A stretch of 64,000 bases of DNA, taken from contig NC_134033.1 in assembly GCF_964204645.1 (NCBI RefSeq), positions 5,180,231 to 5,244,230 on the forward strand. The letters run 5' to 3'. Both the position numbers and the translations under genes were made by a program. Origin of the DNA: Tubulanus polymorphus. Its lineage: Eukaryota > Nemertea > Palaeonemertea > Tubulaniformes > Tubulanidae. The notes under the pieces are model-generated. The model was not told the DNA's origin, made no database searches, and worked only from the letters and a program-made list of their open reading frames with translations. The first letter of the stretch is position 1, and each line of letters opens with the position of its first letter. Shown here piece after piece: positions 4,340-42,274 of the stretch.

Positions 4340-7300
4340 ATAAATACATAAAGTTATACCTTGGAGTTTATTCCAAGGTTATACATACATCATATGAGCG
4401 TAAGTAAGTACCATTTGAGAAGGTCATTGCACCTTATACATAATTATCATTATTATTATCTTCATGAATAAACTGTAACGATTAATAATGAGAAAGTAAA
4501 TGGTTTTTTGTTCGATTTTTGAAACTTTCAATAGAAGGGGAGTTTTTAATTGAATCATTCATAATATTCCAAATATTTGGACCGTTGACTTTTATTGAGA
4601 AACCTTTTAGATTTGATTTGAATGAGTCAGGGCGGATGTTGTTGCTGTTTCTAGTGTTGTATCCAACGTCATTCGTCTTAAAAAAATTATTGAACATCTC
4701 AGGTAACTTGTTATTGACATATAGATACATGAATTGTCCAATTTGAAAATTGTTTATATCTGCCAATTTAAGAATTTTTGCAGACTTTAATAATGGTGAG
4801 GTATGGGCTCTAAAATCGGTTTTAAAGATAATGCGGACCGCTTTCTTCTGGAGAAGTTCCAGCTTTCTTAAGTTTGAAGGATAAGTATTACCCCATACAA
4901 TATTACAATAGGTGAGATGGCAATAAATGAAAGAATAATACAACTGCAGTAAAGTTGTTTTTGACAAAATTCCATAAAGTCTACCCATTATACCAATGAA
5001 CCGTGATAGTTTAGTACAGATGCTATTAATGTGTGACTTCCAAGTAAGCTGGTCGTCAACTTGAACGCCTAGAAATTTTGTTGTCGAGACTTGTGATATA
5101 GACATATTGTTGATTTTGATAGAAATTGAGTGTTTATGTTTAGCACGACTGAAAAACATGAAATGAGTCTTTTTCAAATTCAATGAAAGCCTATTTGCCC
5201 GAAACCAGATATTCAGTTTGTGTAGTTCTGTATTTACTATTATAGTTAACTCATTAATATTGATATGAGAAGTGAATACATTAGCATCATCAGCAAACAT
5301 GATAAGATTAAAAATGCTTGATGCGTTTGCAAGGTCATTTATATATAATAAGAAAAGGATCGGCCCCAAAATAGATCCTTGAGGCACTCCACAGAATACA
5401 GGATAGCTAGTGCTAGTAGTCTCTTTAAAAAGAACAGTCTGAAAACGGTTTGAAAGATAGTTTCTAAACCAGAGTAATGGCGTACCTCTGATGCCATAAT
5501 GGCAAAGTTTAGACAATAGAATTTCATGATTCACTGTATCAAATGCACGCGAAAGGTCTAAAAATATTCCTATAGTTGATTTGCCATTGTCTAAGTTATT
5601 GATAATTTTATCTATGATAACAGTAATAGCCATGTTGGTGGAATGGTCTTTTCTAAATCCAAATTGACATGGAGATAGTATTTTATACTTGTCCAAAAAA
5701 CTTATAACTCTTTTGTAAACTACTTTTTCTAAGATCTTGGAAATACATGGGAGTATTGATATTGGTCTGTAGTTTGAAAAATGTGAAACATCTCCAGATT
5801 TGAACGAAGGTAATATCTTAGATATTTTGAAGGATTCAGGTACTTGTCCATTAATCAAACTTAGATTTAAAATATGAGCTAACGGCCGAGATATAGCGTC
5901 AATTACTCTCTTAAGGATCTTTTGATTGATACCATCATGACCAGTGTTATTACTATTTTTAAATTTTGAAACAATATTTTCAATTTCCAAAGAATCTGTG
6001 GGAGAGAAAAAGATATTATTTTGTTGTGGCGGACCCAGAAAAGAAAAAAATGTTTTGTTAGTAGGTAAAATATCATTGGCTAGATTTGGACCCGCTTGTG
6101 CAAAACACTTATTAAATTCATTGGCTATACTAACATTATTTTTGTACATAACACCATTCTGTTCAAAAACATCAGGATATTTAGAATTTGATGATTTTCT
6201 ATTAATTAGGTCATTAATTATTTTCCAGGTTTCCTTGGGATCTCTCGCATTGTTTAACATAGAGTTATAGTGAAGCGTTTTAGCCTTTTTGATACAAGTA
6301 TTAAAAACGTTTCTATATCTATTGTAGATATCTCTATCAGTTTGAAGTTTACTAGACAGGTATCTTCTATAAAGAGAATCCTTCTTTTTCAAAGAAATCA
6401 ATAAACCGTTAGAAAACCATCCGTGTTTCTTGTCCCTATATATCGAAAACTTTCTATTGATTATAGGGAAACATTGCGTGTAGTATTTATAGAATACATC
6501 ATAAAAAGAGTTATAGGCAACATTAGCATCATGAATATTAAACACATGAGTCCAATCATGTGCAATTAGCTTTCGTTTAAATCGAGCGATATCATGATCT
6601 GACATTTTTCGATAACTAACTGTCCTAGTTGATGTATGGTTGACTTTGATTTCCGGCATAATTGCAAAAATTGGAAAGTGGTCAGATATATCATAGATCA
6701 GAATCCCTGAAATTGCATCGAAACTAGAATAACAGTTTGAATATATATTGTCAATAAGAGTAGAAGATCTGTCGGTTACTCGTGTTGACTTATCTATTAA
6801 ATTCGTAAAACCAGTTGAAAGCATATTAAAAATAAAATCTCCAGTCGGTTTATGAGAGTCGGCGTTGAAAAGATTTATATTGAAATCGCCCAAAATGAAG
6901 CACTTACGCCCTGTTCTAGTTAAGTTTTCTAAGAGTGGTAGAAAATCAGTATTAAAGTTATTGACACTTGCATCAGGCGGTCGATAGATAGTGCCAACAA
7001 TATGTTTTGACATATTATGTGGTAATTGGATTTCTATAAATAAACTTTCGAATGTGTCATTTACACATGTAAAATCATCCAGTATCCTAAATTTAATGGT
7101 GTTGTGGACAAACATCGCTATTCCACCACCACGTGTATCCTGTCTACTTATGAAAATCGACTCATAATCAGGCAAATTATACATTGACTTGTTGTCATGT
7201 TGAAGTTTAGTCCACGTTTCAGTAAAAGCTAAGATCCCAAAATTGAAACAGAGGGAGTGTAAATATAATTGCAAATTCTCAAAATTCTTATTAAAACTCC

Positions 7301-7440
7301 TTATATTTAGATGAAACAAGGAGAAGTTTGATAATCCAAACTTTGATAATTGCGTTAAATCCTTATAATATTTACTACTTGAACCTACGATAAACTCAGG
7401 ATGTGCATGACTGGCCATCTGCTAGTGGAATTGAAGCGTG
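4340..7440 (-). mobile_element. Non-LTR retrotransposon (LINE), ORF2 intact
   Basis: The element spans one uninterrupted ORF plus about 140 bp of 3' UTR containing GGAATAAACTCC on the minus strand, next to the CA tract. Outer limits are approximate because no target-site duplication was found. No ORF1 is visible on the 5' side (7440-7690), so it is either 5' truncated or belongs to a clade with a single ORF. It looks like the youngest LINE here, since the others are broken fragments. Confidence 0.8.
4482..7418 (-). CDS. LINE endonuclease/reverse transcriptase polyprotein
   Basis: 978 residues without interruption. The N-terminal third is an apurinic-type endonuclease/exonuclease/phosphatase domain: LFHLNIRS and TETW near residues 35-70, RGGGIAMF near 98, LGDFNINLF near 178, SDHFPIF near 245. 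The middle is a reverse transcriptase: YRPISILPCISKILEKV, FGFRKDHST, DLSRAFDTVNHEIL, GVPQGSILGPILFLLYINDL, and the catalytic FADD box (FADDANVF). The C-terminal region carries the usual LINE thumb-like sequence (TKFLGV, WGNTYPSNL, GPNIWN). It would nick target DNA and prime reverse transcription there. The family resembles the CR1/L2/Jockey group; I cannot assign the clade without a tree. The first Met at 7418 is plausible because the endonuclease fold starts about 35 residues later. Confidence 0.92.
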   Translation of the reverse strand: MASHAHPEFIVGSSSKYYKDLTQLSKFGLSNFSLFHLNIRSFNKNFENLQLYLHSLCFNFGILAFTETWTKLQHDNKSMYNLPDYESIFISRQDTRGGGIAMFVHNTIKFRILDDFTCVNDTFESLFIEIQLPHNMSKHIVGTIYRPPDASVNNFNTDFLPLLENLTRTGRKCFILGDFNINLFNADSHKPTGDFIFNMLSTGFTNLIDKSTRVTDRSSTLIDNIYSNCYSSFDAISGILIYDISDHFPIFAIMPEIKVNHTSTRTVSYRKMSDHDIARFKRKLIAHDWTHVFNIHDANVAYNSFYDVFYKYYTQCFPIINRKFSIYRDKKHGWFSNGLLISLKKKDSLYRRYLSSKLQTDRDIYNRYRNVFNTCIKKAKTLHYNSMLNNARDPKETWKIINDLINRKSSNSKYPDVFEQNGVMYKNNVSIANEFNKCFAQAGPNLANDILPTNKTFFSFLGPPQQNNIFFSPTDSLEIENIVSKFKNSNNTGHDGINQKILKRVIDAISRPLAHILNLSLINGQVPESFKISKILPSFKSGDVSHFSNYRPISILPCISKILEKVVYKRVISFLDKYKILSPCQFGFRKDHSTNMAITVIIDKIINNLDNGKSTIGIFLDLSRAFDTVNHEILLSKLCHYGIRGTPLLWFRNYLSNRFQTVLFKETTSTSYPVFCGVPQGSILGPILFLLYINDLANASSIFNLIMFADDANVFTSHININELTIIVNTELHKLNIWFRANRLSLNLKKTHFMFFSRAKHKHSISIKINNMSISQVSTTKFLGVQVDDQLTWKSHINSICTKLSRFIGIMGRLYGILSKTTLLQLYYSFIYCHLTYCNIVWGNTYPSNLRKLELLQKKAVRIIFKTDFRAHTSPLLKSAKILKLADINNFQIGQFMYLYVNNKLPEMFNNFFKTNDVGYNTRNSNNIRPDSFKSNLKGFSIKVNGPNIWNIMNDSIKNSPSIESFKNRTKNHLLSHY

Positions 7441-8310: not shown

Positions 8311-11300
8311 ATGTTGGACCGACTATTCGTGAATCGGTTTCTTCTTCTGATCGTTTGTACCGGTAAGTCGAATTTAACTATTTTCTCAGACTCTTCCGAG
8401 GAGGAAATAATGTATAGATATCAAACACGTTTGCGTTCTAATACTGCAGAACGTTTGTGAAACTAGTTTGTTCGAATTTCGCACGGACCAAGCGTTCATA
8501 TTTGCGAAAAGTCCGCTCTTAATTGGTCCAGTCAATTTTAGAACTGAATTGCCACACGTATGCAGTCATAGGTAGAAATGTCCATTAATGCAGTACTAGA
8601 ACACTACAAAGCAGCTAAAAAGTTAGTACATATCCATGCGATATCTGAACGTTGGATGGAAATGGACGGTTTAAAGATGAGTTTTTTCCTTGCAAAGAGA
8701 GTTCGTATTGCAAGTACACGTTACCTTCCTATGAAAAAAAAACTGATAAATAACCGTCGTCAATTGGAGCGAAAAAAATAGTCCGATGCAGGGCCGTTAT
8801 TAACTTTCGAGCGGACCAGTTCTCCATTGAGTAAATAGGAACTTACTGACATAAGTCAGATGAACAGAAAGTTTGCTCAATGTTAAGTTAGGTTTAGACA
8901 TTCGTGTCTTACAAGTTAAGTAATCATGATTACTTAGAAGTAAAGATCGTTATTGTCTCATGTTTATACATAAGGAAAAAAACTATTCAACCATCCGTGA
9001 TAAAATGGTATCAGGTTATTGCCAATGATTCGGTCTTTTTGATTACTGGAGTAAGGCTTAATTTAAATAGAAAACATGGATGCGAGAAAGGGAAAATATA
9101 ATTTCAAAATTAAAAAATTTTACATCAAAAGCGTTTGAAAATGAAAATGACATGTTATCCGATAATTTCCAAAATAAAAGAAACTAAATTGAAAGGAGTA
9201 AGAATTGCGTTGAATTGACTTCAAAATAGGAGAAACAAATGAACTTTACTGCTTACACTAGATTGAAAATTAAGAAGAAAATATCAAAAATGGGTTTTTT
9301 CTGAAAAAAAAATATCGAAGAAAGAGCGATAAAAATCTTTTTTTCGATACGATGTTTTTAATGCGATTCCGGCTGCTGGATCCGTGCTCTAGATATATAA
9401 TAAAAAAGGACCCGTAACTGTAAAAGGCCACATTCTACGGTTCAAATCCTTAAAGGGTAACAGGGGATTTCAATATTTTGATGAAGTTATATTTGACATA
9501 ACTTTTACAAAGAAGAAAATGACGTGTGCTGAAGGCGATCAAAATCGTGAACGTGCAGATTACGATCTAACGTCACTTATCGATACGAGTAGTTGACAGG
9601 GAGAAAACGACGACCCGCTTCTGTTTTGTCGAAATTAAACTAATTGTTGTCATTAATTGTTTCAGATTATTTCATCGCGTCCCAGAGATTTCGGGAACCT
9701 GCAATGCGAAATAGACGCTTTCCAGAATCTGGAATGCCGAGTAGATCGTTTCCCGAATCTGGGATAACGGGTAACTCACGTGGGATGCCTGACCGTAAAA
9801 TCCCCGGAAGCGGCGACATCAAAAACAACCAATTGATCGGAGATTACAAAGTGGCATCAGAAAGGATAGATAAAGATGGTGATTTAGTTCGAGTTTGTCC
9901 AGTCACGGGTTGTTTGTCTGATTTATGTACTTGCGGACTGTTTAACAACTGTTGTGACCTGATTGGAAAGTGCGTCATAAGAAGCGACGCGGACGAATTG
10001 AGACGAAACAAAACGACGCGACAAATTCAATGGACCGACTGTATATACGGAATCGGAATCGAGACGTATCAGTCAAAAGGTTTTATAGCGATCAGTCGAT
10101 GTCCGAGTGATTTCGACTTGAATTCAGACGTGCGTCGCTATTGCGAATCGCCGTCCCGTAATCTAGCAACTACGATACCTGTCTACATCGACGACTGGCT
10201 TCCGTTTAAGAATATGTATTGCGCAATGTGTCACGGGTTCAACGACACTCAATACAAACCGGCTAGACTCGTACTGCAGTGCACTACCACCACACGAATC
10301 GATGACGTCATCAGTAGCGTGCGCAATGCGTCTTCAAGCGACGATGTCGCGAAAGTTCGGCTGCCCGAAGATTGTCGTTTATTTTACGAGCATCAAGGGG
10401 ATATTCGATCGGTATTACAGCCGTGCATGCGCAATAGCATACCCGCCACGTCACAGTGCAACGAGTCAGTCCATCGGGACTTAAGGTCTAAATGCAGACG
10501 GGTTTTCAACCCGATATCAGCTGTAGTCGGTGGGCGGGTGAAAAGATACCGTAATTATTACTGTATGAAATGTGAACTGAGTGACAGCGGTTTAAACGAA
10601 TCAAGCATAGTTTGTGAACGTAATCAAACTGACCAGAAAACATTCGGTTTAAACATCTTACTCGATTTCAGTCTCGCGAACGGCGTAGAATTCCGAACTG
10701 CGGGAATGCCCGTCATCTCCTGGACGCCGAAAGAGTTTCTCTGCTCGGAAACGAACGAAATATTCGACCAGGAGACGCGTAGATGTCGCGGATACGGCTG
10801 TTTACGGGGATACCAACTTCTTGATACCGGTGAAGACAACGCCGTCTGCCGGCTTGTTCGGAACGAATGGCCTAGAATATCCGTAGGCGTTCAATTCTCT
10901 TTGTTTATCACGTTTAATGAAACACAGCGATTAGGTATGGAAACATTGAGTTATGACTTGTCGTATTTCATAGTGATCGGCTGCGGCGATGTCGATAAAT
11001 TCAAGATCGCAGAAATAGGAAGTTTGTCATCTATACTCAATGATTCATCATTATACAGACGAGATTTCACCGTTACCAGTTATGCAGAGTATATCGGTGA
11101 CGTCAACATCGAAACGATTGCGCGCGAATACCATACGATGATCACGTGTATGTTCGGTAAAGATGGCAGTCGGATGACCATTTCCGGTTACGAGTTGTCG
11201 ACTACGAGTTTGACTAAGAATACTCGGTGTGACCTCATCGATTCAGAGCCAGACGTAGGAAGTGATATGACCGGAAGTAGCTTATTTCTAGCCCAGTCCA

Positions 11301-12316
11301 ACCCGTCTTTCAAATATTACAGAATTTTTCAAATCACCACCGACAACGGGAAAACGAAATTTGTAAAATCAAGTAAATGTTCCACCAAAATCACCGACTG
11401 TGTGCGAGTGTATTCCAGTACGGGACTAATGGTTTGCAGACGACAAAACAATTCAAAATTCAAAATAACGGTCAGTTCGTTATTTTCCGATCGCGATTTC
11501 CTGATTACCTTTACCTGTAGCTGCCTGTCCGTCGTCGGTCTCCTGATAACGGTGGTAATCTATTTGAATGTTCCCGATCTGCGAACTCTTCCCGGTAAAC
11601 TCATCGTCAATCTCTGTATAACTCTCGCCGTGGCTCAAACTCTGCATATTTCCAGCCTGATCGGCGTTGATAATCGATTACTATGCGTGTCGATGGCCGC
11701 TGTTAAACACTATATTTGGATGGTTGTTTTCGCTTCGATGGCCGCTGTTTCTATTCACATGTTCACTACATTTTCTGCTGTTCTTAAACTGGTCGATTCT
11801 CCTAAGACGTTACTGTACTATCTACTATCAATTTGGCTCTCTCCATTCCTCATTGTCGGACCCTGTATCGTCCTACACAACACCGATACCAATCAGTACT
11901 CCGGTGCGGTTTACGGAAGCCCCGTTACTTGTTGGTTTAGTTCCAGTTTCTCCCTATTGATGGCGTTCGTTCTACCGATCGGTATTATCGATCTGGTCAG
12001 TATAATTCTATTCGTAGCTACAGTTTACCGCATTCACCGGTCATTTTCCGCGATGTCCACTTCATCATCTAACGCCAAACAGAAGAGGACGACCACATTC
12101 ATTTTCTACCGGATGGCTCTAGTGACCGGGGTCACGTGGGTGGTCGGGTTCGTAGCGTCGTTCGTAAATAACGATTATCTCTGGTATTTCTTCAATTTGT
12201 TGAACTCGTCTCAAGGTTTTCTAGTTTTCTTGGCTTTCATCGTCAACAAACGAGTGTTCGATATGTGCCGGGAGAAATTCAATTCGAGTCAAGCCACCAA
12301 AACCACAAACGAATAA
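8311..12316 (+). CDS. Methuselah-like family B GPCR, two exons
   Basis: Exon 1 is 8311-8362: a signal peptide (LFVNRFLLLIVCT) ending at a GGTAAGT donor. Exon 2 is 9666-12316, after a TTTCAG acceptor; the join is in phase and gives about 900 residues. Residues 24-55 hold imperfect repeats of the type FPESGMPSRS. A large cysteine-rich ectodomain follows (CPVTGCLSDLCTCGLFNNCC; YCAMCHGF; YCMKCE). From about residue 630 there is a secretin/adhesion-type 7TM: FLITFTCSCLSVVGLLITVV (TM1), LPGKLIVNLCITLAVAQ (TM2), VTGVTWVVGFVAS (TM6), NSSQGFLVFLAF (TM7). LPGKLxxNLC is typical of Methuselah-like receptors, and no GPS cleavage motif (HL/T) is seen. The ligand is unknown. The frame is clean, so the gene looks functional. 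Confidence 0.88.
8363..9665 (+). other. Intron 1 of the Methuselah-like GPCR
   Basis: GTAAGT...TTTCAG borders. It contains no recognised gene; short ORFs at 8578 and 8904 lack any family features. Confidence 0.7.
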
Positions 12317-16771: not shown

Positions 16772-19700
16772 ATGAAGTTTAGTATTTCGATATTGCTGGT
16801 AGCGGTGGCGACTATCGCCATTATTGAGTTGGTTGCTTCTGCGCATTTTACTAGAGGTAACGACCCGCCGGCTTACCGAAGTCTGTCCCGATAAAATCCC
16901 CCTATGAATGTTATGAATAGTGATGTCATAGCGGGACTTGAAGGAGACTAACGTGAGGCTATTTTCCATTTTGGACCATGAAAAGCCGCCTTTGTACATA
17001 ACGATTATTTGTCTATTTTATTAAATCAGCTGAACGCTCATTCAACGTTTCTCAGTCTCAACTATGGAATAAGGGCTCCGTCCCGTTTCAATTCGACAGT
17101 TCTCTCGATAAAAGTAAGTTCACTCTTTACCTAAACTGGAACAACAATTAAGTTAAACTGAACCAACGAAGTTACGAGGAAATGCATTTCAGGAAACAGA
17201 ATATTAAGCCTTCAAATCAATGTGATAGAATAAATTGTATCGATTTAAAACGTTTAGGGCCGGTTGACCACTCAATGGTTCCGACTTGAGACTAGTCTAA
17301 GACCTAGACTAATCTTACAACTTCAAACTGGCCTAAGCTCATTTTAGTATCGAACCTAAATCGCACGAATCTACGTGAAAGCATCCTAACCTTAAAATTT
17401 TGGTTCTATGGCAAATCTAACAACTTTTGGTTAAAGCTCATCTTAGTTTGATATCCAATCTAACAACTCAGGACCAGTAAATTGAGCTCATTTCTGGTTC
17501 TTTAACAAATCTAACAACGTAAGACCAGCCTAAGCTCATTTCAGTTCAATAGTCAATCTTACAACTTAAGTCATGTAACAGTCAAAGATTATTTTGGTTC
17601 TACAATTAATCAAACAACTTACGACCAGTCCTTGGATATGAGATTTAACTTAAACACTTCATTCACTTCATACACGTTGGGCTGATGACGTTTGTTAACG
17701 AACGTTTCGTTTATTTTTGTGTGTTTCTAGAGGTGAAGAAAATGATCAAGGCCACAATGAAAGAACTTACAGAGAAAACCTGCGTGAAATTCCGACGTAG
17801 CAAAAAGAAGGACTCGAGCTGGTTGAAATTCTCCAACGGAGTCGGGTTCGTTAACTTACCTAAATCTACGAATCCGAGTTCATAAAGCCCGGTTTCAATT
17901 TGGATAAAAACAATTTTCCAAGGTTTTCATTAAATTCCGAGAACATGTTTATCGAACTACGAACAAACTAGCTTTCTAGATTATACAAAATCGGTTAGGT
18001 TTTAACACCGGGTTAAAAGCATAAGAAATAAACTTTAACTTTACACTGAAAGGCCGAATAAGCCTTCATTGGCTTCATCTAATCTCCTCCACATTATATT
18101 AAAACATTTCATATTTGTATATTCTCGAATATCTATTTATGACATGTTGTAATTTGTTGTGGAATTAAAATTATTATAAATTGTTATAATGATAACCCCC
18201 GAAACTGTTGAACTAGCTAATTAAAACAATAAAATCTAAAACGAAATTTGTTTAAACGTATTCTTCATTCTTTTTTTCAAATATTTTTTCTATGAAATCG
18301 TTATTCGAAGCATGATTTAGTAGTTGCCATAAAATAAAGATATGATTAAATGAGATATGCAATTCATTGTTTTCAGATGCGCCACTCATGTGGGAAAAGC
18401 CGACGAGGAAGGAGCCCAAGTTGTTTCACTCGGAGCCGACTGCGCGTTCAAAGGAATCGTCATTCACGCCGTTACGCATGCGCTAGGTACGTTTACAAGA
18501 TAGTAGGTGCTTGAAATCTGTGAATCTATTTTTCATCAATGATTTAAAAATCAATATAGATATAAGGATAAGCAATATTATTTCATAAATGTGGACATAT
18601 GAAGCACCCACGGCAAGCGAATTATTTAGCAAGTTATTGATTTTAAGCTCTTCCGTCGTAGAAGTCATCTGACAGCTGACGACGTTTTCCAATAGTTTCC
18701 GTCGAGGCCATGACCTCATAAACTAATTTCTATCGAACTTGTCAAACCTGTCCGCTTGAGCTTTATCAGCTCTATTGCTGTCATACAGTCGTTTAATTAC
18801 ATCGACTAAAACTCGTAGGTCTGGAGTGGATGATTTGTATAATATATCCATTGCAATCTGACTTTGTCATTCAAAAGACCAATTAACCCGTTATGAAAAA
18901 GTTCCTACAAGCGGCACAAACGCAAATAAAGGAAAACCAAAATATTCACAAAAGCTCCCGTATACCGTTAAGGTCGTCGGGAAGAGGTTTTGACTCACGT
19001 ATTTTAACTACGCCTCTCATGACACAGTTGGCCAATTTCGCGATTTTCGCCACCAGTTACTTGGTGTCACAGTCCAATATCAGTTGATATGGGCAGTTTA
19101 AATCATTTAACAAACTGACTTGAAGATCGAAATTACGTAGAAAAGCTGACTAGAAAAAAAAACCATCGTCGGCATTTCAATGAATTACAAAACCTCCTCT
19201 TCACCACGTATGCTAGTATTTTCTTCACAATTACGTTCATAATGAGAGATGTCTATATTTCGTTTACCCGCCTAGCAAGCTCTCGTGAATTCAGTGCTCA
19301 GTTGGAACTGGCTCCAGAGTCACTCCGATACCATAATTGACACTCGTTGAACCAGTTGCTGGTGTCACCGACCACTATATGAAGTGGATATAGGTAGTTT
19401 AAACCATTAAACAAGACTAATTGAAGATAGAAATCATGCTGAAAAGCTCACCAGCGAGGCGACCATCGTCAGCATTTCACTGACTTTCAAAGACCCATCT
19501 GAACCATGTATGCTATCATATTCTTATGAAGTATGTTCATGGGGAGAGGTGACCAATATTGCTGGCCCCTGAAATAACCCTTGAGCTTAATCAACTGCCG
19601 ACGTCGAGAAGGCAGTAGTTTGGTTTCATACCTGCGCTTAGCAAGCTTCCATTAATCTAGCCCTATGTTGGAGCTGGGTTAAGAGTAATTCTAAGACTAT

Positions 19701-20984
19701 TCAGGTCATACGTTATAAAGACTCGTCGTGTTGGCATCAAGAGAATGATTTTCTTTGTTTTTTTTTTTTTCATGAAGGATTCACTGACGCGCAGAGCAAA
19801 CCGAACGTAGACAAATACGTTCATCTTACTCGTGATTACATCACCAGAGGTAAGGAGTACTTTACTAACATTCATCTTAAACGATAGTCATTCGAAACGC
19901 AATAAAAATAGATTAAAAGCGTTGATCTGCCTTTTTTCACAACGGGCCTGAACTTTCATACTGATTGTACGGCATTAATGGCTCTGTTCAAGTTCCTATC
20001 ATCAATTGCCTATCTATATTTTGCATTTAATAAAGGAATTTCTTAATTGATGCCAATATCATTATCATGAATGTCTCATCTTCATGCATTTCTACAACGA
20101 AATGCGATTTTCGAAATCCATATTCGATTCGATTCGTTGCCATTTCTGCTGAAGCTGATTTAAATTATATGCCATCATATATTTCGATTTGTAAATTTCG
20201 TTAAAAAGAAAATTATTTTCTTTTACTAGATGAATTGAGCGTAGCGGAACTTGTTGGTATCAACCAACTGTATGGATGCTCTGAAAACTGTAAGTTGTAA
20301 CTGTTTTTACCCTAATCAGTAGATGGTAGCTCGAACGCCAGGACGTACAAATTCGGTCGAAATGAAATGCCTCCATTCAGATTTCTCAAAGTTCGGGCAT
20401 ATACTTTTTCTACATAACCCCAGATTGGTATTTTTGAAGTCGTATACGTCAATATGTTTACAGTTCGCTTATTGAATTAGGTGAAAAGTGAATTATGGAT
20501 GAATTTTAATCGAATCTGCAAAGAATTTAGGATATGATATTACATTACGCGCTAGTGACACCTGGTGGATCCTCACTTGCCACAATTGGAATCCTCTATT
20601 GCCAGAGTATCTTATGTCAATACTTAACATCTGTCACTTATCCTCCATTGCCTGTGAAGTTATTGCGCACTGGTACATCTAGTGAATTCTCACTTTTCAT
20701 AAGTAGAACCCTCGATTGCCACAGTAGATTGCCTCATTATACATAAGCTAATCAGGAATTTTATTATGTCCTATATAGTGGGCTCACTCGGCAACATGTC
20801 CCCATGGACGCCTTGGACTCCGTGCAACACCGACTGCGTCTCCACACGAAGCAGATTCTGCAAGCGCGACACCAGACTCCGCATCAACCCGATTCATCAA
20901 TGCAGCCCGGGTACCGACCAGAGAGGCATCGAAACAGTGTCGAGAAACTGCCCGCGTGACCGTCTTTTCGGCAGATGCGATTAG
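16772..20984 (+). CDS. Astacin-TSP1 pseudoprotease, copy 1
   Basis: Coding exons: 16772-16856, 17030-17113, 17731-17845, 18377-18486, 19778-19849, 20230-20289, 20779-20984. All joins keep phase and give 243 residues. Residues 1-24 are a signal peptide (ILLVAVATIAIIELVASA). The astacin core starts SQLWNKGSVPFQFDSSLD, then TCVKFR, then NGVGCATHVGKADEEGAQ, matching the family. The active site reads HAVTHALGFTDAQSKP where astacins have HExxHxxGFxHExxRP: the general-base Glu is Ala and the third zinc His is Asp. The chain then jumps from the YVHLTRDYI region to LSVAELVGINQLYGC, so the segment with the Met-turn SxMHY is missing. There is no propeptide. A C-terminal TSP1 repeat follows (MSPWTPWTPCNTDC). 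Secreted and probably proteolytically dead, perhaps a binding protein. Exon 4 uses a weak GG|GTTCGT donor. Confidence 0.85.
17270..17640. repeat. Intronic tandem repeat, about 60 bp
   Basis: Degenerate units around CTAACAACTTAAGACCAGTC, CTAAGCTCATTTTAG and GTTCGATATCCAATC repeat through the intron before exon 4. The same array is in copy 2 (26520-26970). Confidence 0.7.
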
Positions 20985-21020
20985 TCGACTTTTTAAAATG
21001 TAGTTTAGTCAAATTTTGAG

Positions 21021-21026
21021 AATAAA
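21021..21026 (+). terminator. Polyadenylation signal, astacin-like copy 1
   Basis: AATAAA 37 bp after the stop codon. It is conserved in copy 2 (29931-29936) and copy 3 (about 42124). Confidence 0.7.
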
Positions 21027-21168
21027 GTCTCTAAAATTATAGATTTAAGTTAAATATTTTAAGGTATTATCAGATATCCAACGTTGTATCTACGTAAAAC
21101 TGGAACAACAAGATATCCGAAGGACCGAATATCCGAACAGCTTTCGTACAACCCATACACTACACTAC

Positions 21169-21237
21169 GGCAATGAACAGGGCTCGAACCCACGACCTGG
21201 CAACCGAGAGACGCTTTAAACTCTCGGCTACACCGCC
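21169..21237 (-). repeat. tRNA-like sequence / SINE head
   Basis: On the minus strand, GGCGGTG pairs with CATTGCC as a 7-bp acceptor-like stem. A box-like TAGCCGAGAGTTTAAAGCG and B-box GGTTCGAGCCC are present. No proper anticodon arm is formed, so this is a tRNA(Leu/Ser)-like pseudogene or SINE head, not a working tRNA. Confidence 0.6.
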
Positions 21238-21639
21238 ATTTCACAGCTAAAAGATATATTTTTGATGGTATCATTCAATAGTTCGCTTGATCCAAAAGAT
21301 AAGTTATTTGACACCTCTTAATTACCATTTTTAACTTAAATAGTAGTTATTTTAGAACCATCGCGCCCATTGAATTTAAAGCTTCCTTTACTAAAAAAAA
21401 AAACCACCTAGAGCCAAACACAGCGCAAATCACTGGTTGCAAGTTGATTGAGTCAAGATTAGTGTTAGGGTATTTCGAGTTTGCTGTAACGAGGATCCAT
21501 CTGTTTTACACATCAGCCTAAGCCCGAGTTCCCTAGATAACATAGAGTTAAAATGTCAACTTACCAGTTCATGAGTGCAGCTTACGATGATTTCAGTCAG
21601 ATATTATTCATTTTTTGAAGATATGATTATTCGAGCATT

Positions 21640-22236
21640 CTAAGCTCCGTCGGGATAAGATATTTCAGTAATAGCGCATTGACAGCAGTCAGGTCCCGAG
21701 GAAGTGAGGAAGGTCTGCAGTCCGCTCTGTAATCGTTGGTTTAGTCCACTTGTATTGACAGCGATCGGGTCCCGAGGAAGAAATCTGTAAAAAAACGAAG
21801 ATCACTATCAATTTTCAATTTGACTCGATACATATACATTGTATAGTCAGTTAGATCTAGTATCAAATAAGAACAAATCTACTCACCACTGACCTCTGTT
21901 TGAAGCGTCGTGGATTTCGAAAGGTCTTGAGTCAACAATGTTTCAGTTTAGTCAGCTTCGCGGTGTTGACATCAATCGGGTCGCAAGTGAGGAACAACTG
22001 ATCTGAAAATCAACAATTCCATCAATTCTACATTTTCTCATTCCGACTGGAAGAATAGGTTAGACTGAGTAGGATCCCTGACAGGCTATCAACACGGTAA
22101 ATATTCCCCTAGGCCACTTCGTTGCTCCCTTATTGAGTTAAGTAGACTCATCTTTTCAGTTTGAAAACAAATCTTATAGATTGACTAAACCGTTGTTTAG
22201 ATTCAACTCACCTAACCGCGCCGGAGGACTGGACAT
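21640..22236 (-). other. Candidate small spliced transcript, copy 1
   Basis: Minus-strand splice sites: exon 1 from an ATG at 22236 to a GTTAG|GTGAGT donor (last base 22212), exon 2 22002-21887 (TTTTCAG acceptor, CAGTG|GTGAGT donor), exon 3 from 21784 (TTTTTACAG acceptor). The same sites occur in copies 2 and 3. Translation begins MSSPPARLDQLFLTCDPI and meets a stop in exon 2 here, one base short of copies 2 and 3. Exon 3 contains an approximately 60-bp GGACC...CTGCAGACC repeat also recognisable in exon 2. It may be non-coding; the 3' limit is unknown. Confidence 0.45.
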
Positions 22237-22879
22237 ATATTATGCGCGTGTATAGTGAATTCAACGTATGTAGTTAAGAATTAATCCTCGAAATTGGATC
22301 AATCGAACGTAACCACGTGATTTCAAAGACCAATAACAATAACAGGACACAATATGAGTGGGTTTCGTCATAACGCGGTTCAATGGACAGTGTAAAATGC
22401 ACTGCGATACTACCGGCGACACTGGGTAGATATTACCAAAACTGATTACGAACAAATGAAAAGACACTTAATATCCTCATTGCCTCTCTCCACCCAGGAG
22501 TAAAATGGGTAAATTATTCTTCCATGATCGACATTACAAATTTGGTTATTCACGCATTTTTTTATTTCAATTTTCATATGTTGGTATTTTTGATTGGTTT
22601 AAAAATCCATTCATCATATGGACCGTGTCGATGATCTCTAGGATGCGCCGGTGGCTGTGATGTTTATTACGAAAGTAATTGCTAAAAACACTCAGCGTTT
22701 TGAGGCGTGACGAATCTGCTAATCAGTTGGATACCACGCATAGTGATTGTCATAATGTTGGTTTTGTGCGTGATTTTGATTTTAACCTCCAGTTTTCTCA
22801 GTTGAGCCAAACATTGCGATCGGTTAGAGACTTACTAATTGATTATATGCGGTCAATTTTGCAGTAGTTTAAATCTAAT

Positions 22880-23000
22880 ACAGGTTACAGTTCGACACTC
22901 ATGAGTTATAGAGTTTACTCTGAGTTAGAATTAGTTCATTTACGACGAGTTATCCCTACGTCAAATCTAAATTCGCAACTTTGGAACTGGTTCCAGTATA
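22880..23000. repeat. Degenerate copy of the palindromic element
   Basis: GAGTTATAGAGTTTACTCTG and CTTTGGAACTGGTTCCAG match the 15494-15600 element. It is duplicated with the astacin-like locus at about 31880-32005. Confidence 0.5.
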
Positions 23001-23229
23001 GTCTACAAATCTATTCATCCATCACAGTTATACAGACCTGGTCTGATAGGAACTATCATTTGACAACTTATTAACAACTTATTTACTAACTCCCATTCCG
23101 CCGTCTTTAGACTACCATCTGAAATACACAAGATGTCAGTCTAATGGATATGGCGGAACGAGAGTATGTTAATGACATAGATCTTATTGTGAAACACAAA
23201 GGTTCAATTCATTCATTCACCAGGCTCTA

Positions 23230-23561
23230 CAAAAAAAAAGCTCATCAATAGATATTGAATATTCATCCCGTCCCCCTAAAATATTCTATCATGGTATGTT
23301 TATGTTATATAATAGTTATTGTAGTATTACCATTGTATGTTGTATATTGTTTTGAAAATAGCTTACCATAGATAAGCCTTAATTGACATTTGTATCATTG
23401 TCATCATCCATTTCATAGTCACCGGGGCTCGTCCACTCTGTTCAGACCCACAGCCTTCAGGCTCTGGACGAGTCCTTCATAGTTCATTGTGGTATTTTGT
23501 AAGATAAATTATTATATTAAACTATGTTCTATGAAAATAAAATCAATCAATCAATCAATCG
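23230..23561 (+). mobile_element. LINE or SINE 3' tail
   Basis: Ends in an (AATC)n tail (AAAATCAATCAATCAATC) after a sequence able to form a stem (GGGCTCGTCCACTC... and ...CTCTGGACGAGTCC). This is typical of CR1/L2-type 3' ends. Absent at the matching place in copy 2, so it inserted after that duplication or was lost there. Confidence 0.6.
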
Positions 23562-23839
23562 AGTTCCTATTGTTTTCATATTTGCCCTGAGAAAAAAACT
23601 ACGATTAAATCAAAAAATGCCGTAATCTCGACCGCCGATCACACAACTTTATCCGTACTTTGATATCCGATTTCAATATCAAATCCCCTGTTTCGGTCAT
23701 GTTAGGTGTGGTTGGTTTATTAGGGACATCAATCAAAGTCAAATCAAACCAAATATACCACTCAAATAAATAACAGGGTTATTTCCTACTTTAAGATAAA
23801 ATTATTCGATTACTCTTACAAAGTCTATGGATTCAATGT

Positions 23840-23975
23840 AACACAAAGTCAAATACAACGGTTGTATTTGACTTTGTTGGCGAATACTTTGTATATTTTG
23901 TGATTGATACCGCGTCAAGGAATCTGCCTTCGTCCGATATCAACCCACTCGAACCAGCCACAGGAACAGCGTATG
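23840..23975 (+). repeat. Interspersed repeat, probable LINE fragment
   Basis: Closely similar to 33850-33985. The better copy reads FNVGEYFVDFVMDTASKNLP, recalling the F..YFV..G..LA region just before LINE RT domains. Short and broken. Confidence 0.45.
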
Positions 23976-24819
23976 AAATTGATTGCGGTTTGAAATGTGT
24001 TTGGAATCGTGAATGTGATTTGTTCATCAAACGACAAATAACGTCGTCAAATGTCGTTAATATAATACAGATCTGATTGGCGTTGATCAAATGGCAACAA
24101 GCCACTGATGAAGTTACCTACAAAGATGGGTCTAGCTACAGACACTTGCACATGGTCTAATAACATGTTTTACTGATTAAGTTACCGTGGAAGCTTCAAT
24201 GTTGGCAAATCACTATTTTTCAATTTACGTCAATTATTGTAATGGCAATTATAGTGTAATCGAACGTAACATTTATTCAAATAGATAAAACCAAGTAACG
24301 ACCATCTCAAGAGAAAAACACGAAACGCCATGACTGTATCTAAATATTCTTATTCGATTCTCAATAGATGATTCATTTCGTTGTCAATCTTTATAATGTA
24401 TTATGTAGTGGCTTTTTAATTCTTCAATAAACTCTATAACATGTTACGATCGAGTCTGTCGCGTGGGACGATCGGATTTATACGCCTTCAGTAATTCAGG
24501 TTTTGGACCTTGCTTTATTTTGGTCTTCATCTTCTGAAGTTTGTTATCATTATGTCGTTATTAGAATCGCTTTCGTGTACAGTGCTATGATTATTGTGTA
24601 TTATCGTTTTGTGATAATGAACTTTTCCAATATTCCTCAATCGACTGTGTTTATGCATTTGTCTGGTGTGAGGTTCATCCCCTCTCGTATAGAAACGGTT
24701 TGATTGTCTCGGGGGTTGTCTCAAAATTATGGTGGCTGATTCGGGCCGTACAAAGCGATTTGTCTGTTCGGCTAGTGGAACGATTAAACAAAATTCAAAT
24801 TGGCCTGTTCTAATAGTCT

Positions 24820-25142
24820 TGTACCACTTTGTACATCCTCCCTCGGCAGGGATTCGAACCTAATGGCATCGCTACACTCAGCCACGGAACGAACCCCTGT
24901 CACAGTAGACAGGGTGCCCACCAATCAGATTGCTTGTTGTTTAATCGACGAGGTAAATTTGAGAACTGAAAACGGGAAAATCCGGGCTGAAATAAAACGG
25001 GATATCTGATTGGCTAATAATGACATCATCAAAGCTGCGCGTGTAGCTGCGTACTCGGTCTGGTGTGGCAGGGTTTCGTATCGTGGCAATCTCGATGCCA
25101 TCAGATTCGAATCCTGGCGGGGAAGATGAAATTTGTACCACA
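24820..25142. mobile_element. MITE with B-box-like inverted ends
   Basis: Left CTCGGCAGGGATTCGAACC...ATGGCATCG is mirrored by CGATGCCATCAGATTCGAAT on the right, with further pairing outward (TTGTACCACTTTGTACAT). The inside is non-coding. Other members: 49725-50580 and 63655-63930. Confidence 0.75.
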
Positions 25143-25467
25143 GGTATTGGACAAATAGCGTCAAAATGCTATCTACGTAGTTGAACCCAGCTGCAGACGT
25201 ACCACGTGATCGCGTCGCCATCATCCACGATGACAGATGTAAATGTTTCCATCGAGCCCGGAATTTCGTGTCATATTGACACAATAACGTCACGAGGGGA
25301 TAAGTATGATCCTGTTTTTCCCTATACGGAAAATCGATTTGATAAACAAAGAATGCCGCGAGGCAGCCGTTACATACCGGAGGTAAATTCTCGGATCACG
25401 ATACACGTGAATGACCGGAAGTTGATCACCGGATATCCGCGCAGCTGTTAGGATGGATGGAATTTTG

Positions 25468-25537
25468 TATATAACCGCAGCCAAATCTAACCACGATTAA
25501 CCCATGCTCTGGAATCGAAGGAGTTTGCGTTAACAAG
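25468..25537 (+). promoter_or_regulatory. TATA box and 5' UTR exon, astacin-like copy 2
   Basis: TATATAA at 25468-25474 and a non-coding exon ending AACAAG|GTAAGA (25537). Upstream, one ETS-like ACCGGAAGT is kept while the other reads ACCGGAGGT, and the CRE has become TAACGTCA. Confidence 0.55.
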
Positions 25538-26002
25538 GTAAGAAAATATCAAAATATACAAAAATATCATTCAACAATATCTGAAATTTGAGAACAAGCT
25601 CTGTACATCGATTTTAATGGATTCTGTATAAGCTCGAACTTGATATTTGCCAAATAAGAAATAGGAGAAACGGCTGGCTGTAACATATGTGGTACTTTTA
25701 TAAATTATGAGTTGGCCAGACGAGAGATTACTTGGGATTTCAGATTGAGATGAATATTCAAAATAATATTGATGATATCTAACGTGAACTCTCCTGACTT
25801 TCCCGATGAAGCTGCTACGCTCTTGTAGCTCGTCGTAATTTGGTTTATAGTCAGTGTTAGTATAGTTAGTATAGTCATTGAAAGTAACTACGTACTATAT
25901 CTCTGTTTTAAAGTTTAACTTGAAATGATCTTTCACTCAGCTGCTGAACAACATATTTTGATGAAAGGTATTCTTTATTTTCAGTCACAAAAGTCTGCAA
26001 AT

Positions 26003-29000
26003 ATGAAGTTTAGTATTTCGGTATTGCTGGTAGCGGTGGCGACTATCGCCATTATTGAATCGGTTGCTTCTGCCCATTTTCCTAGAGGTACCGACCCGCC
26101 GGCTAACAGAACTCTGTCCCGATAAATCCCCATATGACATCATCTGGTTAAAATAAGCCTTTCGATATTTGAAATGTATATTGAAACGTTACGAATTGTG
26201 ATGTCATAGGGGGGCTTAAATGAGACTAGCGGTTGGCTAATTTCCATTTTGGCTTTAGAAAAACTGTAACAGTCTTTTGTACCTAGCGATAATTTGTTTA
26301 TTTTTTTGTAATCAGCTGAACGCTCATTCCGCGTTTCTCAGTCACAACTATGGAACAAGGGCTCCGTCCCGTTTGAATTTGACAGTTCTCTCGACAAAAG
26401 TAAGTTCACTCTTTAATTCAAACTGAACCAACAAAGTTACGAGGAACTACATTAGGAAACTGAATATTAAGTCTTCAAATCAATATGATAGATGAAATCG
26501 GTCGATTTAAAACTTTAAGGCCTTTTTGGCCACTCAATGGTTCCGGTTTAAGGACAGTCCTCAATGTTCTGGTTTAGAAATAGTCTAGTACCACCCTTGT
26601 TCTATAGCTAATCTCACAACTCCAAACTGGTCGAAGCTCATTTTAGTATCGAACCTAAATCGAACTAATCTAACAACAGCTGTGTAAACTTATTTTGGTT
26701 CTAAGAAAAATCCAACAATTTTAAAGACCAGTCTAAACTAATTCTAGTTCGATATCCAATCTAACAACTTAACACCAGTCAACTAATATGCTCATTTCTG
26801 GATCTATAGCAAATCGAACAACGTAACACAGGTCTAAGCTCATTTTAGTTCCAAAATCCCACAACTTGAGACCAGACTAAGGTCATTTTCGTTGTATAAT
26901 CAATCTTTACAACTTAAGAAAAATCTGAGATTGTTTTGGTTCTCAATCCAATATCTTACGACCAGTCCTAGGTTATAAGATTGCTCGTAAACTTCATTCA
27001 CATCGGTACAACTGAGCTGAATGAATTTGTTAACGAACGTGTGGTTTATTTTTGTCTAGATGTGAAGAAAATGATCAAGGCCGCAATGGAAGAACTTACA
27101 GAGAAAACCTGCGTGAAATTCCGACGAAGCAAAAAGAAGGACTCGAGCTGGTTGAAATTCTCCAACGGAGTTGGGTTCGTTAACTTACCTAAACCTACGA
27201 ATCATAAAGGCTGGTTTCAATTTGGATAAAACATTTTTTCCAAGATTTGCATTAAATTCCGAGAACATTTTTATCGAACTGCGAACAAACTAGTTTTCTA
27301 GATTTTAATAGATCGGTTTGGTTTAAATCATAAGAATAAATAAACTTTAACTTTTGACTGAAAGGTAACCCTTGAAACTGTTGAACTAGCTACTTAAACC
27401 AATATATTCTAAAACGAAATCTATTTCGTAAACGTATTCTTCATGCTTAATTTTGAAATAATTATCTTATGAAATCTCTATTCGCAGCATACTTGTCAAG
27501 TTGTTGTAGAATAAGATTTGATAAAATGAGAAATGAAATTCGTTGTTTTTAGATGCGCCACTCACGTGGGAAAAGCCGACGAGGAAGGAGCCCAAGTAGT
27601 TTCACTTGGAGGCGACTGCGCGTTCAAAGGAATCGTCATTCACGCCGTTATACATGCGCTAGGTACGTTCACAAGATAGTAGTTGCTTGAAATCTGTAAA
27701 TATATATTTTAATTGCATCAATGATATGAATCAATATAAATATAAGGGTAGGCAATATTATTTCATAAATTTAGGCGTATGAAGCACCTGCGGCAAGCCA
27801 ATATCATTTAGCAAGTTCTAGATGTTAAGCTCTTCCGTTGTAGAAGTCATCTGACAGCTGACGACGTTATCCAATAGTTTCCGTCGAGGCCATGACCTCA
27901 TAACCTGATTTCTATTAGATATCGAACTTGTCAAACCTGTCCGATTGAGCTTTATCATCTCTAATGCTGTCATACAGTCGTTTAATTACATCGACTACAA
28001 CTCGTCTGAGTTCTGGAGTGGATAATTTATATGATATATTCATTACACTCATTCATTACACTCATTCATTACACTCTGACTTCGTCATTCAAAAGATTAT
28101 ATAACCCGTTCTGAAAAATTTCCTACAAGCGGCACTAACGCAAATAATTGTGGAACACATATATTCAAAAGTGAAAAAGTTTTCAAAAGCTCCCGTATAC
28201 CGTTAAGGTCATCAAGGGAGAGGTTTGGACTCACATATCTTAACTACGACTCTCATGACGCAGTTGGCCATTTTCGCCACTAGTTGCTGGTGTCACAGGT
28301 CGATATTTGGCAGTTTAAATCATTTAACAACTTGACTTAAAGATCGAAATCATGTTGAAAAGCTCACCAGAAAGGCGACCATCGTCAGCGTTTCACTGAA
28401 TTTCAAAGCCCCCGATGAACCATGTATGCTATCATTTTCTTATGAAGTATGTTCATGGGAAGAGGTGACCAATATTGTTGGCCCCCTAGATTAACCATTA
28501 AGCTTAGTTAATTGCCGATGTTCAGAAGGCAGGATGTTTATTTTCCTTTCTGCGCTTAGCAAGCTTTCGTGAATTCAGCCCAATGTTGGATCTGGAACCA
28601 GAATCACTTTAAGTCATACGTAATAAAAATGACTCGTCGTGTTGGCGTCTAGAAAATGATTTCCTTTGTTTTGTTTTTCATGAAGGATTCACTGACGCGC
28701 AGAGCAAACCTAACGTAGACAAATACGTCCATCTTACTCGTGATTACATCACCAGAGGTAAGCAGTACTTAACTAACATTCATCTTAAACGATAGTCATG
28801 CGAAACGCAATAAAAATAGGTTACTCAGTATAAGCGTTGATCTACCTTTTTCTCAACGGGCCTGAACTTCCGTACTGATTGTACGGAATCACATTTCTAT
28901 CATCAATTTCCTGTTTCAATCATGTATTTAAGTAAGGAATTAATTAATTGATGCCAAAATGATCATCATGAATGTCTCATCTACGACGAAATTCGAAATA

Positions 29001-29864
29001 CGAAATCCCAATTCGTTTCGATTCGTTTCGTTGCCATTTCTGCTGAAGCTGATTTGAATTATATGCCATCATATATTTTGATGTATACCTTTTATTTTAA
29101 AGAACATTTTTTTCTTTTTACTAGATGAATTGAGCGTAGCGGAACTAGTTGGTATCAACCAACTGTATGGATGCTCAGAAAACTGTAAGTTGTAACTGTT
29201 TTCCCCTGTAGATGGTGGCTCGAATGTCAGGACGTACATATTCAGTCAAAATGAAATTCTTCCATTCGGATTCTCAGGCAATTACTTCAGTTTGGCATAT
29301 TTGAGTCATATAAGTCACAATGTTTACAGTTCGTTCAATGAATTTGATGAAAAGCGAATTTCGATAAATTTTAATCGAATCCGAAAAGAATTCAGGAAAT
29401 GATATCATATTGCGTACTAGTGACACCTGGTGGTTCCTCACTTGCCACAATTGGAATCCTCTATTGCCAGAGGAACTGATGTTCTACTTCTCATCTGTCA
29501 CTTAGCGAAATCCTACATTGCCAGAGCAGCATTTTATGCACACTAGTACGTCTAGTGGATTCTCACTTAACATAAGTAAAACCCTCGATAGCCACAGTAG
29601 ATAGCCTAATTATGTGTTATAAATGAGCTAATCAGGAATTTTAATATGTCTTATATAGTGGGCTCACTCGGCAACATGTCCCCATGGACGCCTTGGACTC
29701 CGTGCAATTCCGACTGCGTCTCCACACGAAGCAGATTCTGCAAGCGCGACACCAGACTCCGCATCAACCCGATTCATCAATGCAGCCCGGGTACCGACCA
29801 GCGAGGCATCGAAACAGTGTCGAGAAACTGCCCGCGTGACCGTCTTTTCGGTAGATGCGATTAG
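26003..29864 (+). CDS. Astacin-TSP1 pseudoprotease, copy 2
   Basis: Coding exons: 26003-26087, 26316-26399, 27060-27174, 27553-27662, 28686-28757, 29125-29184, 29659-29864. Exon sizes are identical to copy 1 and also give 243 residues, all in phase. Signal peptide ILLVAVATIAIIE-type, then SQLWNKGSVPFEFDSSLD, TCVKFR, GCATHVGK, and a mutated zinc site HAVIHALGFTDAQSKP. The catalytic Glu is Ala, the third His is Asp, and the Met-turn region and propeptide are missing, as in copy 1. The TSP1 domain differs at one residue (CNSDC for CNTDC). Differences from copy 1 are mostly substitutions that keep the reading frame, while introns carry many indels, which suggests constraint on the protein. Likely secreted, with a non-proteolytic role. 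Confidence 0.85.
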
Positions 29865-37025: not shown

Positions 37026-38699
37026 AAGGCTGTTCAAAATGGCCAGCGTCATACTTGTGAAGTACAAGACGTTTTCGTTTAGAAATCATTAACCGCAAAT
37101 ACAGATGGACCTTACTCACTCTTTGACATGTAAACAAAACAATCATTATCTTATTCGATTAAAAGCTTCCACACGTACGAAGCCCGGATGTAATGTCCAC
37201 GAATTGCCCTTCTAAACCCCTCCCGTCCTCAGATTAGATTTCTGCCGGAATATTCCGCCTACTTCGACCTCCTCAGAATATATGGATACCGGATTTTTAC
37301 GGAAATTTCCGGAAGGAAATCTGCTCCCGAATTAAGCCTTTGAAGGTCAATTTCATTGAGACTTTCTTGGAACTGGAGTTTTGTACATTCTAAGCTTTCG
37401 AAAAATAGCTAGGAAATATTTTTCCCGACAGTTTACTGCATTCTGCTACTAGATGAACCCGTCTGATGAAGTTCTGACCACCTGATCGTAGTCGCCAATA
37501 TTTACTGAATCGACAATAAATCAATTATGAAAGATGTCAAACAAGTTTCCGCCGAAGCTGGTGTTCCGCCTCGTATTGACCACCATCCAGACATCATGCG
37601 CGACACGCATACATATTTCTTTTCGACGTTTTAAAATCCTGTTTATCCCTATACGGAAAATCGATTCGATTGACAAAGAATGCCGTGAGGCAGCCGCTAC
37701 TTAGCGGAAGTAAATTACCGGATAACGATATACGCAAATGACCGGAAGTTGATGACTGGCATGGATGGATTTTTGTATATAACCGCAGCCAAATCTAACC
37801 ACGATTATCTCATGCTCTGGACTCGAAGGACTTAAAAAGGTAAGAATGCATGGAAATGTACAACACAAATTGGTAAATACTGCCATACTCGGAAAAGTTG
37901 ATCAAAGTATTTGGCACGCATTTCGGAAAAATCAAATTCAAATTTGAGAAAATAGGCTCTATTCGTTGCCTAGCAGATTAATGGGTTTTACATATGCTAG
38001 AGCTAGTTGGCAAATACAAAAGAAGAAAAACATACGTTTGCTATAAACGGTTGTGATACTTGTAAAATAAGAATACTCCCGAGTTGGCCCGATGATAAGA
38101 AGGGGGATCAGTTTCAGATATCTATATACCATGAACTCTACTCGTTTACCTAATGAAGCTATACAATGCATTAGCAGCGAGCTTTCTATAAGTTATAGTG
38201 ACTAGGCCTACATGTTTTCAGTTTAATTTGAAACCAGCCACGAACAATAAAACAGCTCTTCTCATTAATGGTATTCTTTTGATTCAGATATGAAATCTCC
38301 AATGATGAAGTTTAGTATCTAAACGTTGCTGGTAGCAGCGGCGACTATCGACTTGTTTGAATTGGTTGCTTCTGCGCACTTAACAAGAGGTACCGTCCGG
38401 CCCGCTAAAAAATGTATTCGTTCATAAAATCCCCAAATGACATCATCGGGCTAAGTAGCATTTCGATATTTGATTTAGAAATGTTATAAATAGTGATGTC
38501 ATAAGGGGACTTATGGAAACTAGTGGTTGGCTATTTTCCATTTTGGATTTTGAAAAACTGTTTTTGTACCTAACGATTATTTGTCTACTTTTTGTAATCG
38601 GCCCAACGCTCATTCCGCGTTTCCCAGTCACAACTATCGAACAAGGGCTCCGTCCCGTTTGAATTTGACAGTTCTCTCGACAAACGTAAGTTCACGCTT

Positions 38700-40300: not shown

Positions 40301-40319
40301 ATTTTGACGAGCATTCTTT

Positions 40320-41832: not shown

Positions 41833-42274
41833 TAAGCTAAATCAGGAATTCTATTATGTCTTATATAATGGGCTCACTGTCAACAACAACACTGGCAATA
41901 TGTCCCCATGGACGCCTTGGACTCCGTGCAACACCGACTGCGTCTCCACACGAAGCAGATTCTGCAAGTGCGACACCAGACTCCGTATCAACCCGATTCA
42001 TCAATGCAGCCCGGGTACCGACCAGAGAGGCATCGAAACAGTGTCGAGAAACTGCCCGCGTGACCGTCTTTTCGGTAGATGCGATTAGTCGACTTTTAAA
42101 AATGTAGTTTAGTCAAATTTTGAGAATAAAGTCTCTAAAATTATAGATTTAAGTTAAATATTCTAAGGTATTATCAGATTTCCATCCTTGTATCTATACG
42201 TAAAACCGGAACCACAAGATATCCGAAGGACCGAATATCCGAACAGCTTTCGTACAACCCATACACTACACTAC

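Follow-up and report, generated by a model that had tools for sequence, protein, structure and literature searches.

A putative family of non-catalytic astacins with a TSP1-like domain in the genome of the nemertean Tubulanus polymorphus

What becomes of a secreted protease gene when its active site is destroyed? The question is raised by two neighbouring genes in a stretch of 64,000 nucleotides from Tubulanus polymorphus (contig NC_134033.1, positions 5,180,231 to 5,244,230 of the forward strand; the whole stretch is called the window below). They lie in tandem on the plus strand, copy 1 at 16772-20984 with its ATG at 16772 and copy 2 at 26003-29864 with its stop codon ending at 29864, and both resemble an astacin metalloprotease joined to a TSP1-like domain. 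With a probability of about 0.8, judged from their sequence, we read them as protein-coding genes for a secreted, non-catalytic pseudo-astacin with one TSP1-like domain, kept as a binding module. A preliminary description of the locus had seen here a recruited, non-catalytic secreted protein. This is supported by the loss of the catalytic residues in four gene copies and by ratios of nonsynonymous to synonymous substitution rates (dN/dS) well below 1.

The exon models of the two genes were inferred from the sequence (Table 1). Each gene has seven exons of 85, 84, 115, 110, 72, 60 and 206 nt that give 243 residues, and GT-AG borders are found at all six introns in both. The copies differ at 31 nucleotides and 11 residues; their exons are 92-98% identical, while the introns are unequal in length and 78-87% identical where aligned. 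The open frame of 243 residues, the equal exon lengths and the drifting introns described before agree with these coordinates and models. AATAAA starts 37 nt past the stop codon in copy 1 and 67 nt past it in copy 2. The first 24 residues, judged by eye, resemble a signal peptide with a hydrophobic stretch ending in ASA, and the product is probably secreted.

Are there more members of the family? A protein search of the genome (268 Mb, 77 contigs, with the window on contig C9) gave at least five copies, all of them on C9, of which four are intact (copies 1, 2, 4 and 5) and one, copy 3, is decayed. Copies 4 and 5 are about 0.6 Mb away on the strand opposite to copies 1-3 (C9:5812012-5815922 and C9:5827259-5831071). 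Copy 3 lies in the window and has remnants of exons 1, 2 and 7; its exons 3-6 were not detectable at 38686-41882, and the sequence between exon 2 and exon 7 is unrelated and AT-rich.

Which parts of astacin are kept, and which are lost? The astacin assignment holds in a profile search, where copies 1 and 2 match Pfam Astacin at E values of 2.7e-29 and 7.6e-30 over profile positions 2-116 of 189 only. A sequence search of the PDB gave 18 chains at E<=0.1, and all but one of them are astacins, meprins, BMP1/tolloid or hatching-type enzymes. In the two copies HAV[T/I]HALGFTD stands in the place of the zinc motif of astacins, HExxHxxGxxH. Aligned with the zinc helix of astacin, HELMHAIG, they have HAVTHALG and HAVIHALG, followed by GFTDAQSKPNVDKYV where astacin has GFYHEHTRMDRDNYV. 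Three residues are thus exchanged: the catalytic Glu for Ala, the third zinc His for Asp, and the family Glu after this His (E103 in astacin, according to a passage of the review PMC9848320) again for Ala. HAVTH or HAVIH together with GFTDAQ had been reported by the preliminary description and is present as described. All four intact copies read HAV[T/I]HALGFTDA, so none has the catalytic M12A motif HExxHxxGxxHE. Sequence coding for HExxHxxG was not found in the six frames of both strands of the 64 kb window, and within the window there is no candidate for an alternative exon with an intact HExxHxxGFxH.

The loss is not limited to these residues. About 52 codons with the SIMHY Met-turn and the zinc Tyr are gone from the 5' side of the Met-turn exon. 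Exon 6 has 60 nt, compared with 212-220 nt for the Met-turn exon in nine of ten models of related genes (the tenth, L086, is a poor model), and what remains corresponds to the last astacin strand, GINQLYGC. A Met-turn motif with the zinc Tyr (SIMHY) is absent from the gene models and from six frames of the whole window. A Met-turn exon hidden in intron 5 was considered and rejected, since the translated alignment of this intron over the four intact copies gives no common open frame for it; the placement of intron 5 of copy 2 on the Met-turn by a spliced aligner was rejected too, for it contains a stop and has no similarity. In exon 2 the [EG]GDI propeptide motif is missing from all four intact copies, while it stands upstream of LW in all ten relatives. 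We read this motif as the aspartate switch of astacin zymogens, a latency mechanism described in a section of PMC9848320, and its loss fits because no activity would be left to restrain. Cys 74, 96, 117 and 172 correspond to the four cysteines of the two astacin disulfides (C42-C198 and C64-C84 in an excerpt of PMC9848320), and the fold is probably still held by disulfides. The idea that the astacin framework is kept therefore stands for the first two zinc His, the GF and the cysteines, but not for the C-terminal subdomain, which is largely gone; if anything, the preliminary description seems to have been too cautious about the extent of the enzyme loss. The crystal chain 3lq0 of pro-astacin, which we take to be an engineered inactive mutant, has HALMH in the alignment, against HELMH in wild-type 1ast; Ala in place of this Glu is thus tolerated by the astacin fold. 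Profile match, cysteine pattern and common intron phases argue for membership in the astacin superfamily by descent.

Could a metal site remain without the enzyme? None of H125, H129 and D135 varies among the four intact copies, and Asp is the third zinc ligand in snapalysin-type metzincins. One explanation is then that the two His and the new Asp hold zinc in a structural or an unusual hydrolytic site. This is unlikely, for Ala stands where the general base was, neither the Met-turn floor nor the Tyr ligand is left, and without a base no hydrolysis would be expected. With no base, third His, Met-turn or Tyr, metzincin chemistry as treated in parts of PMC9848320 gives no reason to expect peptide cleavage.

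Then are these genes simply pseudogenes in recent decay, with frames that are open by chance or because the duplication is young? Copy 3 has plainly decayed, one of the five, and damaged sites are found in five of 80 zinc exons elsewhere in the genome (L064, L067, L069, L075 and L081). However, the four other copies retain 243 codons, all splice sites and all cysteines (ten in each), while their introns have gone down to 58-65% identity in comparison with the most diverged copy. Pairwise dN/dS, calculated with the Nei-Gojobori method (NG86), is 0.085, 0.142, 0.183, 0.191, 0.227 and 0.255 for the six pairs of intact copies. The value of 0.18 between copies 1 and 2 is not near 1, the result that would have spoken against a functional gene. 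For each pair 2000 neutral simulations were made, in which the same number of changes was placed randomly with stops avoided, and in none of the six pairs did any of the 2000 have as few amino-acid changes as observed. Decay is thus very improbable as an account of the four copies. Purifying selection holds their frame open despite the lost catalytic residues, as would be expected of a pseudoprotease. Of the 243 columns 27 vary among the four copies; residues 1-40 account for 10 of them, residues 41-116 for 11, residues 117-175 for 4 and residues 176-243 for 2. The most constant parts are the TSP1 exon, with dN from 0 to 0.013, and the former active-site stretch. The catalytic machinery is gone, yet the protein is preserved, and this suggests that it acts by binding and not by cutting.

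It may also be asked whether the copies are separate genes at all, or one gene counted repeatedly through misassembly or haplotypic duplicates. The introns of copies 2 and 5 are 96.3% identical, in opposite orientation and about 0.6 Mb apart, which could be taken in this sense. But the synonymous rate dS is 0.12 between copies 1 and 2, whose introns are 16% different, and about 0.2 for copy 4, and the register of the duplicated block around copies 1 and 2 continues past the genes, from about 16.1 to 32.2 kb. Repeated counting of one gene is hardly credible on these numbers. The same distances bear on the age of the active-site changes. Ala and Asp are present in all four intact copies, the more diverged copy 4 included, which makes it probable that the changes came before the duplication in the window, in line with the preliminary description; gene conversion could in principle have spread them among the copies. 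A genome-wide pattern for the Ala motif gave five matches, the four intact copies and C47:73250, and none in the reversed control. The match at C47:73250 is taken as chance, with about two random matches expected by our own estimate.

Where did the family come from? The genome holds a large set of astacins, with at least 161 exon matches and several tandem runs on C4, C8 and C10. As a control, 80 matches covering the zinc helix were used, with near-identical duplicates and fragments left out. Glu follows the first His of the HxxxHxxG frame in 76 of the 80, Gln does in one (L075), and the pattern is absent in three, L064 with RELIH, L069 with QQLLH and L081 with QQLLT. The third zinc His is found in 67 of the 76. 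In L067, which has an in-frame stop, Gln stands in its place, and the exons of the other eight end before this position. None of the 80 has Ala together with Asp. Damaged sites therefore exist elsewhere, but this combination is seen in the pseudo-astacin family only. In the three exons without the pattern (L064, C4:7056486-7056780; L069, C6:10561679-10561970; L081, C1:24073484-24073802) the first zinc His is replaced, in two of them the Glu too, and the downstream PDRDxxV stretch is kept.

Twelve relatives were modelled by spliced alignment, and ten of them have common intron positions that split HALG from GF. These ten have the same intron positions and phases as the family. They all keep the third His, the Met of the Met-turn and the [EG]GDI motif, and 9/10 keep the catalytic Glu, 9/10 the zinc Tyr and 9/10 a TSP1-like W..W..C exon. 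In L086 (C10:3308500-3316000, with the zinc exon L075) the catalytic Glu is Gln (HQLMH) and the zinc Tyr is Phe (MHF); it is possibly a second, independent inactive astacin-TSP1 gene, on a gene model that is poor. In a tree of 16 rows, which are short and partly missing, support of 100/100 unites the four copies, whose stem measures 1.99 changes per site. The node that groups them with the ten relatives and sets both apart from L093 and L094 is also at 100/100. The intact relatives likely mark the ancestry of the family. A similar signal peptide start is found in L003, at 5.75 Mb on the same contig, to which copy 2 is 40% identical over 141 residues (E 2e-35).

The second domain needs a separate look. 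Exon 7 has WxxWxxC and a six-cysteine pattern, with six Cys in each of the four copies, and its three Pfam matches at E<=10 are all TSP1 models, far below cut-off. Among five sibling exons scanned, the TSP_1 cut-off of 21.6 is passed by one (L085, 22.3 bits) and the other four are below it. L088 has a second, more canonical W..W..C..C stretch downstream. Outside the family, a genome search with the TSP1-like exon gave only weak matches, six in number with E from 0.02 to 2.7, and five of these lie just downstream of astacin exons. The label TSP1-like is used because of descent, that is, the six-cysteine pattern and the related exons at the same place in siblings, and not because of the exon's own score. 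The TSP1 label is in this respect weaker than the preliminary description had it.

Several points weigh against the reading of these genes as coding for a preserved pseudo-astacin with a TSP1-like domain. The four intact copies are few and related; their six dN/dS values are for this reason not independent of each other, and the likeness of the copies may have been preserved by gene conversion. Exon 7 fails the Pfam cut-off, with E values of 0.19-0.25 for TSP1_spondin and 1-1.5 for TSP_1, and its AlphaFold model, at a mean predicted local distance difference test score of 45.4, is too poor for use. For L003, a TSP1 exon was not found within about 8.9 kb downstream. The tree gives no exact sister gene, and the family stands on a long branch.

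How might a pseudo-astacin of this kind have arisen, and what would it do? Most probably the family descends from a catalytic astacin-TSP1 protease of the kind found elsewhere in the genome. In the line of the family the catalytic Glu and the family Glu were replaced by Ala and the third zinc His by Asp, and the propeptide with its aspartate switch was lost, as were the codons at the 5' side of the Met-turn exon. The protein still has TSP1 and, of astacin, the N-terminal subdomain, the last strand including its cysteine, and the full set of four disulfide cysteines. In the most likely arrangement, docking on the matrix or the cell surface falls to the TSP1 exon, the slowest-changing part, and a partner is bound by the former active-site face or sheet of the dead astacin module. 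Our first choice, a tentative one, is competition with the active astacin-TSP1 siblings, be it for substrates, for docking sites or for inhibitors. In its wider form the proposal, equally tentative, would be a metzincin fold reduced to its N-terminal subdomain, still with both disulfides, and put to use beside TSP1 in a stable secreted binding module that regulates or competes with the ancestral active proteases, in a functional family of four genes.

About the same probability attaches to a role in adhesion or matrix alone, which the results fit as well. The protein would then be purely adhesive or structural, with TSP1 and the core binding matrix, mucus or a gamete coat and no link to the siblings. 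TSP1 is indeed the most conserved part, with 2/68 columns variable. Ascidian sperm-surface astacin-TSP1 proteins act in the interaction of sperm and egg coat (passages of PMC6353882 and PMC11673157), and inactive ADAMs often work through their other domains, as stated in part of PMC11266112. On the other hand, the residues that include the former active-site helix are nearly invariant (4/59 columns variable), and a mere spacer would not need that.

The remaining features of the window are included in Table 1. The receptor on the minus strand at its start presumably resembles relaxin-receptor-type proteins.

Table 1. Exons of the pseudo-astacin copies in the window and other features of the window (positions counted from its first nucleotide).
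Feature	Position	Strand	Remarks
Copy 1 exon 1	16772..16856	+	signal peptide, hydrophobic stretch ending ASA (by eye)
Copy 1 exon 2	17030..17113	+	mature N-terminus LWNKGSVPF; without propeptide aspartate-switch motif
Copy 1 exon 3	17731..17845	+	astacin helix A region, Cys74
Copy 1 exon 4	18377..18486	+	Cys96, Cys117, HAVTHALG (catalytic Glu to Ala)
Copy 1 exon 5	19778..19849	+	GFTDAQSKPNVDKYV (third zinc His to Asp, family Glu to Ala)
Copy 1 exon 6	20230..20289	+	short counterpart of Met-turn exon; only C-terminal GINQLYGC left
Copy 1 exon 7	20779..20984	+	six-cysteine TSP1-like domain and stop
Copy 2 exon 1	26003..26087	+	signal peptide (by eye)
Copy 2 exon 2	26316..26399	+	mature N-terminus
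Copy 2 exon 3	27060..27174	+	
Copy 2 exon 4	27553..27662	+	HAVIHALG
Copy 2 exon 5	28686..28757	+	GFTDAQ
Copy 2 exon 6	29125..29184	+	short counterpart of Met-turn exon
Copy 2 exon 7	29659..29864	+	TSP1-like domain and stop
Copy 3 (decayed) exon 1 remnant	38305..38389	+	in-frame TAA at codon 6
Copy 3 (decayed) exon 2 remnant	38602..38685	+	acceptor AG to GG
Copy 3 (decayed) exon 7 remnant	41883..42088	+	acceptor broken
Receptor exons	200..3242	-	LDL-receptor-A, leucine-rich-repeat and rhodopsin-type seven-transmembrane receptor (Pfam domains)
Long interspersed nuclear element (LINE)-type element	4485..7421	-	979-residue open frame; endonuclease/exonuclease and reverse transcriptase domains
Secretin-family seven-transmembrane domain	9644..12316	+	890-residue frame; long cysteine-containing N-terminal part, no Pfam match at E<=0.01
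Charged open frame	45842..48148	-	768 residues; GC-rich stretch (GC 0.55); no Pfam match above cut-off

How does this family compare with known systems? With the astacin family, M12A of MEROPS (astacin, meprin, BMP1/tolloid), it has in common the Pfam Astacin match of about 1e-29, the disulfide cysteines, the first two zinc His and the GF; it differs in that the catalytic Glu, the third His, the family Glu, the Met-turn, the zinc Tyr and the propeptide switch are gone. Astacin-TSP1 proteins as such are already known, namely the Tast proteins of tunicates. As far as sections of PMC6353882 and PMC11673157 describe them, these have an astacin domain in the secretory pathway followed by TSP1 and are coded by clustered genes, as here; but they are longer, TSP1 is mostly repeated in them (at least twice, with a single repeat in HrTast5), and the consensus given for the family is HEXXHXXGXXHE. 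For Tast2d of C. robusta (C1.332) the same excerpts give an unclassified zinc domain. Pfam Cellulose_synt, looked for as a sign of a tunicate host, had no match in the T. polymorphus genome, in a profile search that can miss exons. COX1, sought with a view to the mitochondrial code, had no match either.

Dead metzincins with known roles are mainly ADAMs, usually with the Met-turn, in the account that parts of PMC11266112 give. The inactive ADAMs of M12 (ADAM2, 7, 11, 22 and 23) likewise have a dead zinc site beside an interaction domain and are extracellular; they belong to another subfamily with other domains, and typically keep the Met-turn that is deleted in the pseudo-astacin (passages of PMC11266112). 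The M12 pseudopeptidases tabulated in that source are unc-71 and ADAMs, and in its portions drawn on here astacins are named once, as a metzincin family. The word 'inactive' is absent from the main text of the astacin review PMC9848320. For literature on astacin pseudoproteases or inactive astacin-TSP1 proteins, no title on such a family stands among the titles listed, which is no proof of absence.

The closest comparison is with the sibling astacin-TSP1 genes of the same genome (L084, L085 and L087-L092). They have the same intron positions and phases, the 115-nt exon 3 and a TSP1-like last module, but they keep the full HExxHxxGxxH, a SIMHY-type Met-turn and an EGDI-type propeptide motif. 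In the pseudo-astacin all catalytic elements are lost, the Met-turn subdomain and the latency switch included, under selection and with intact siblings present. This makes the family a clean natural experiment, and the question it poses is which parts of an astacin serve catalysis only and which are useful alone.

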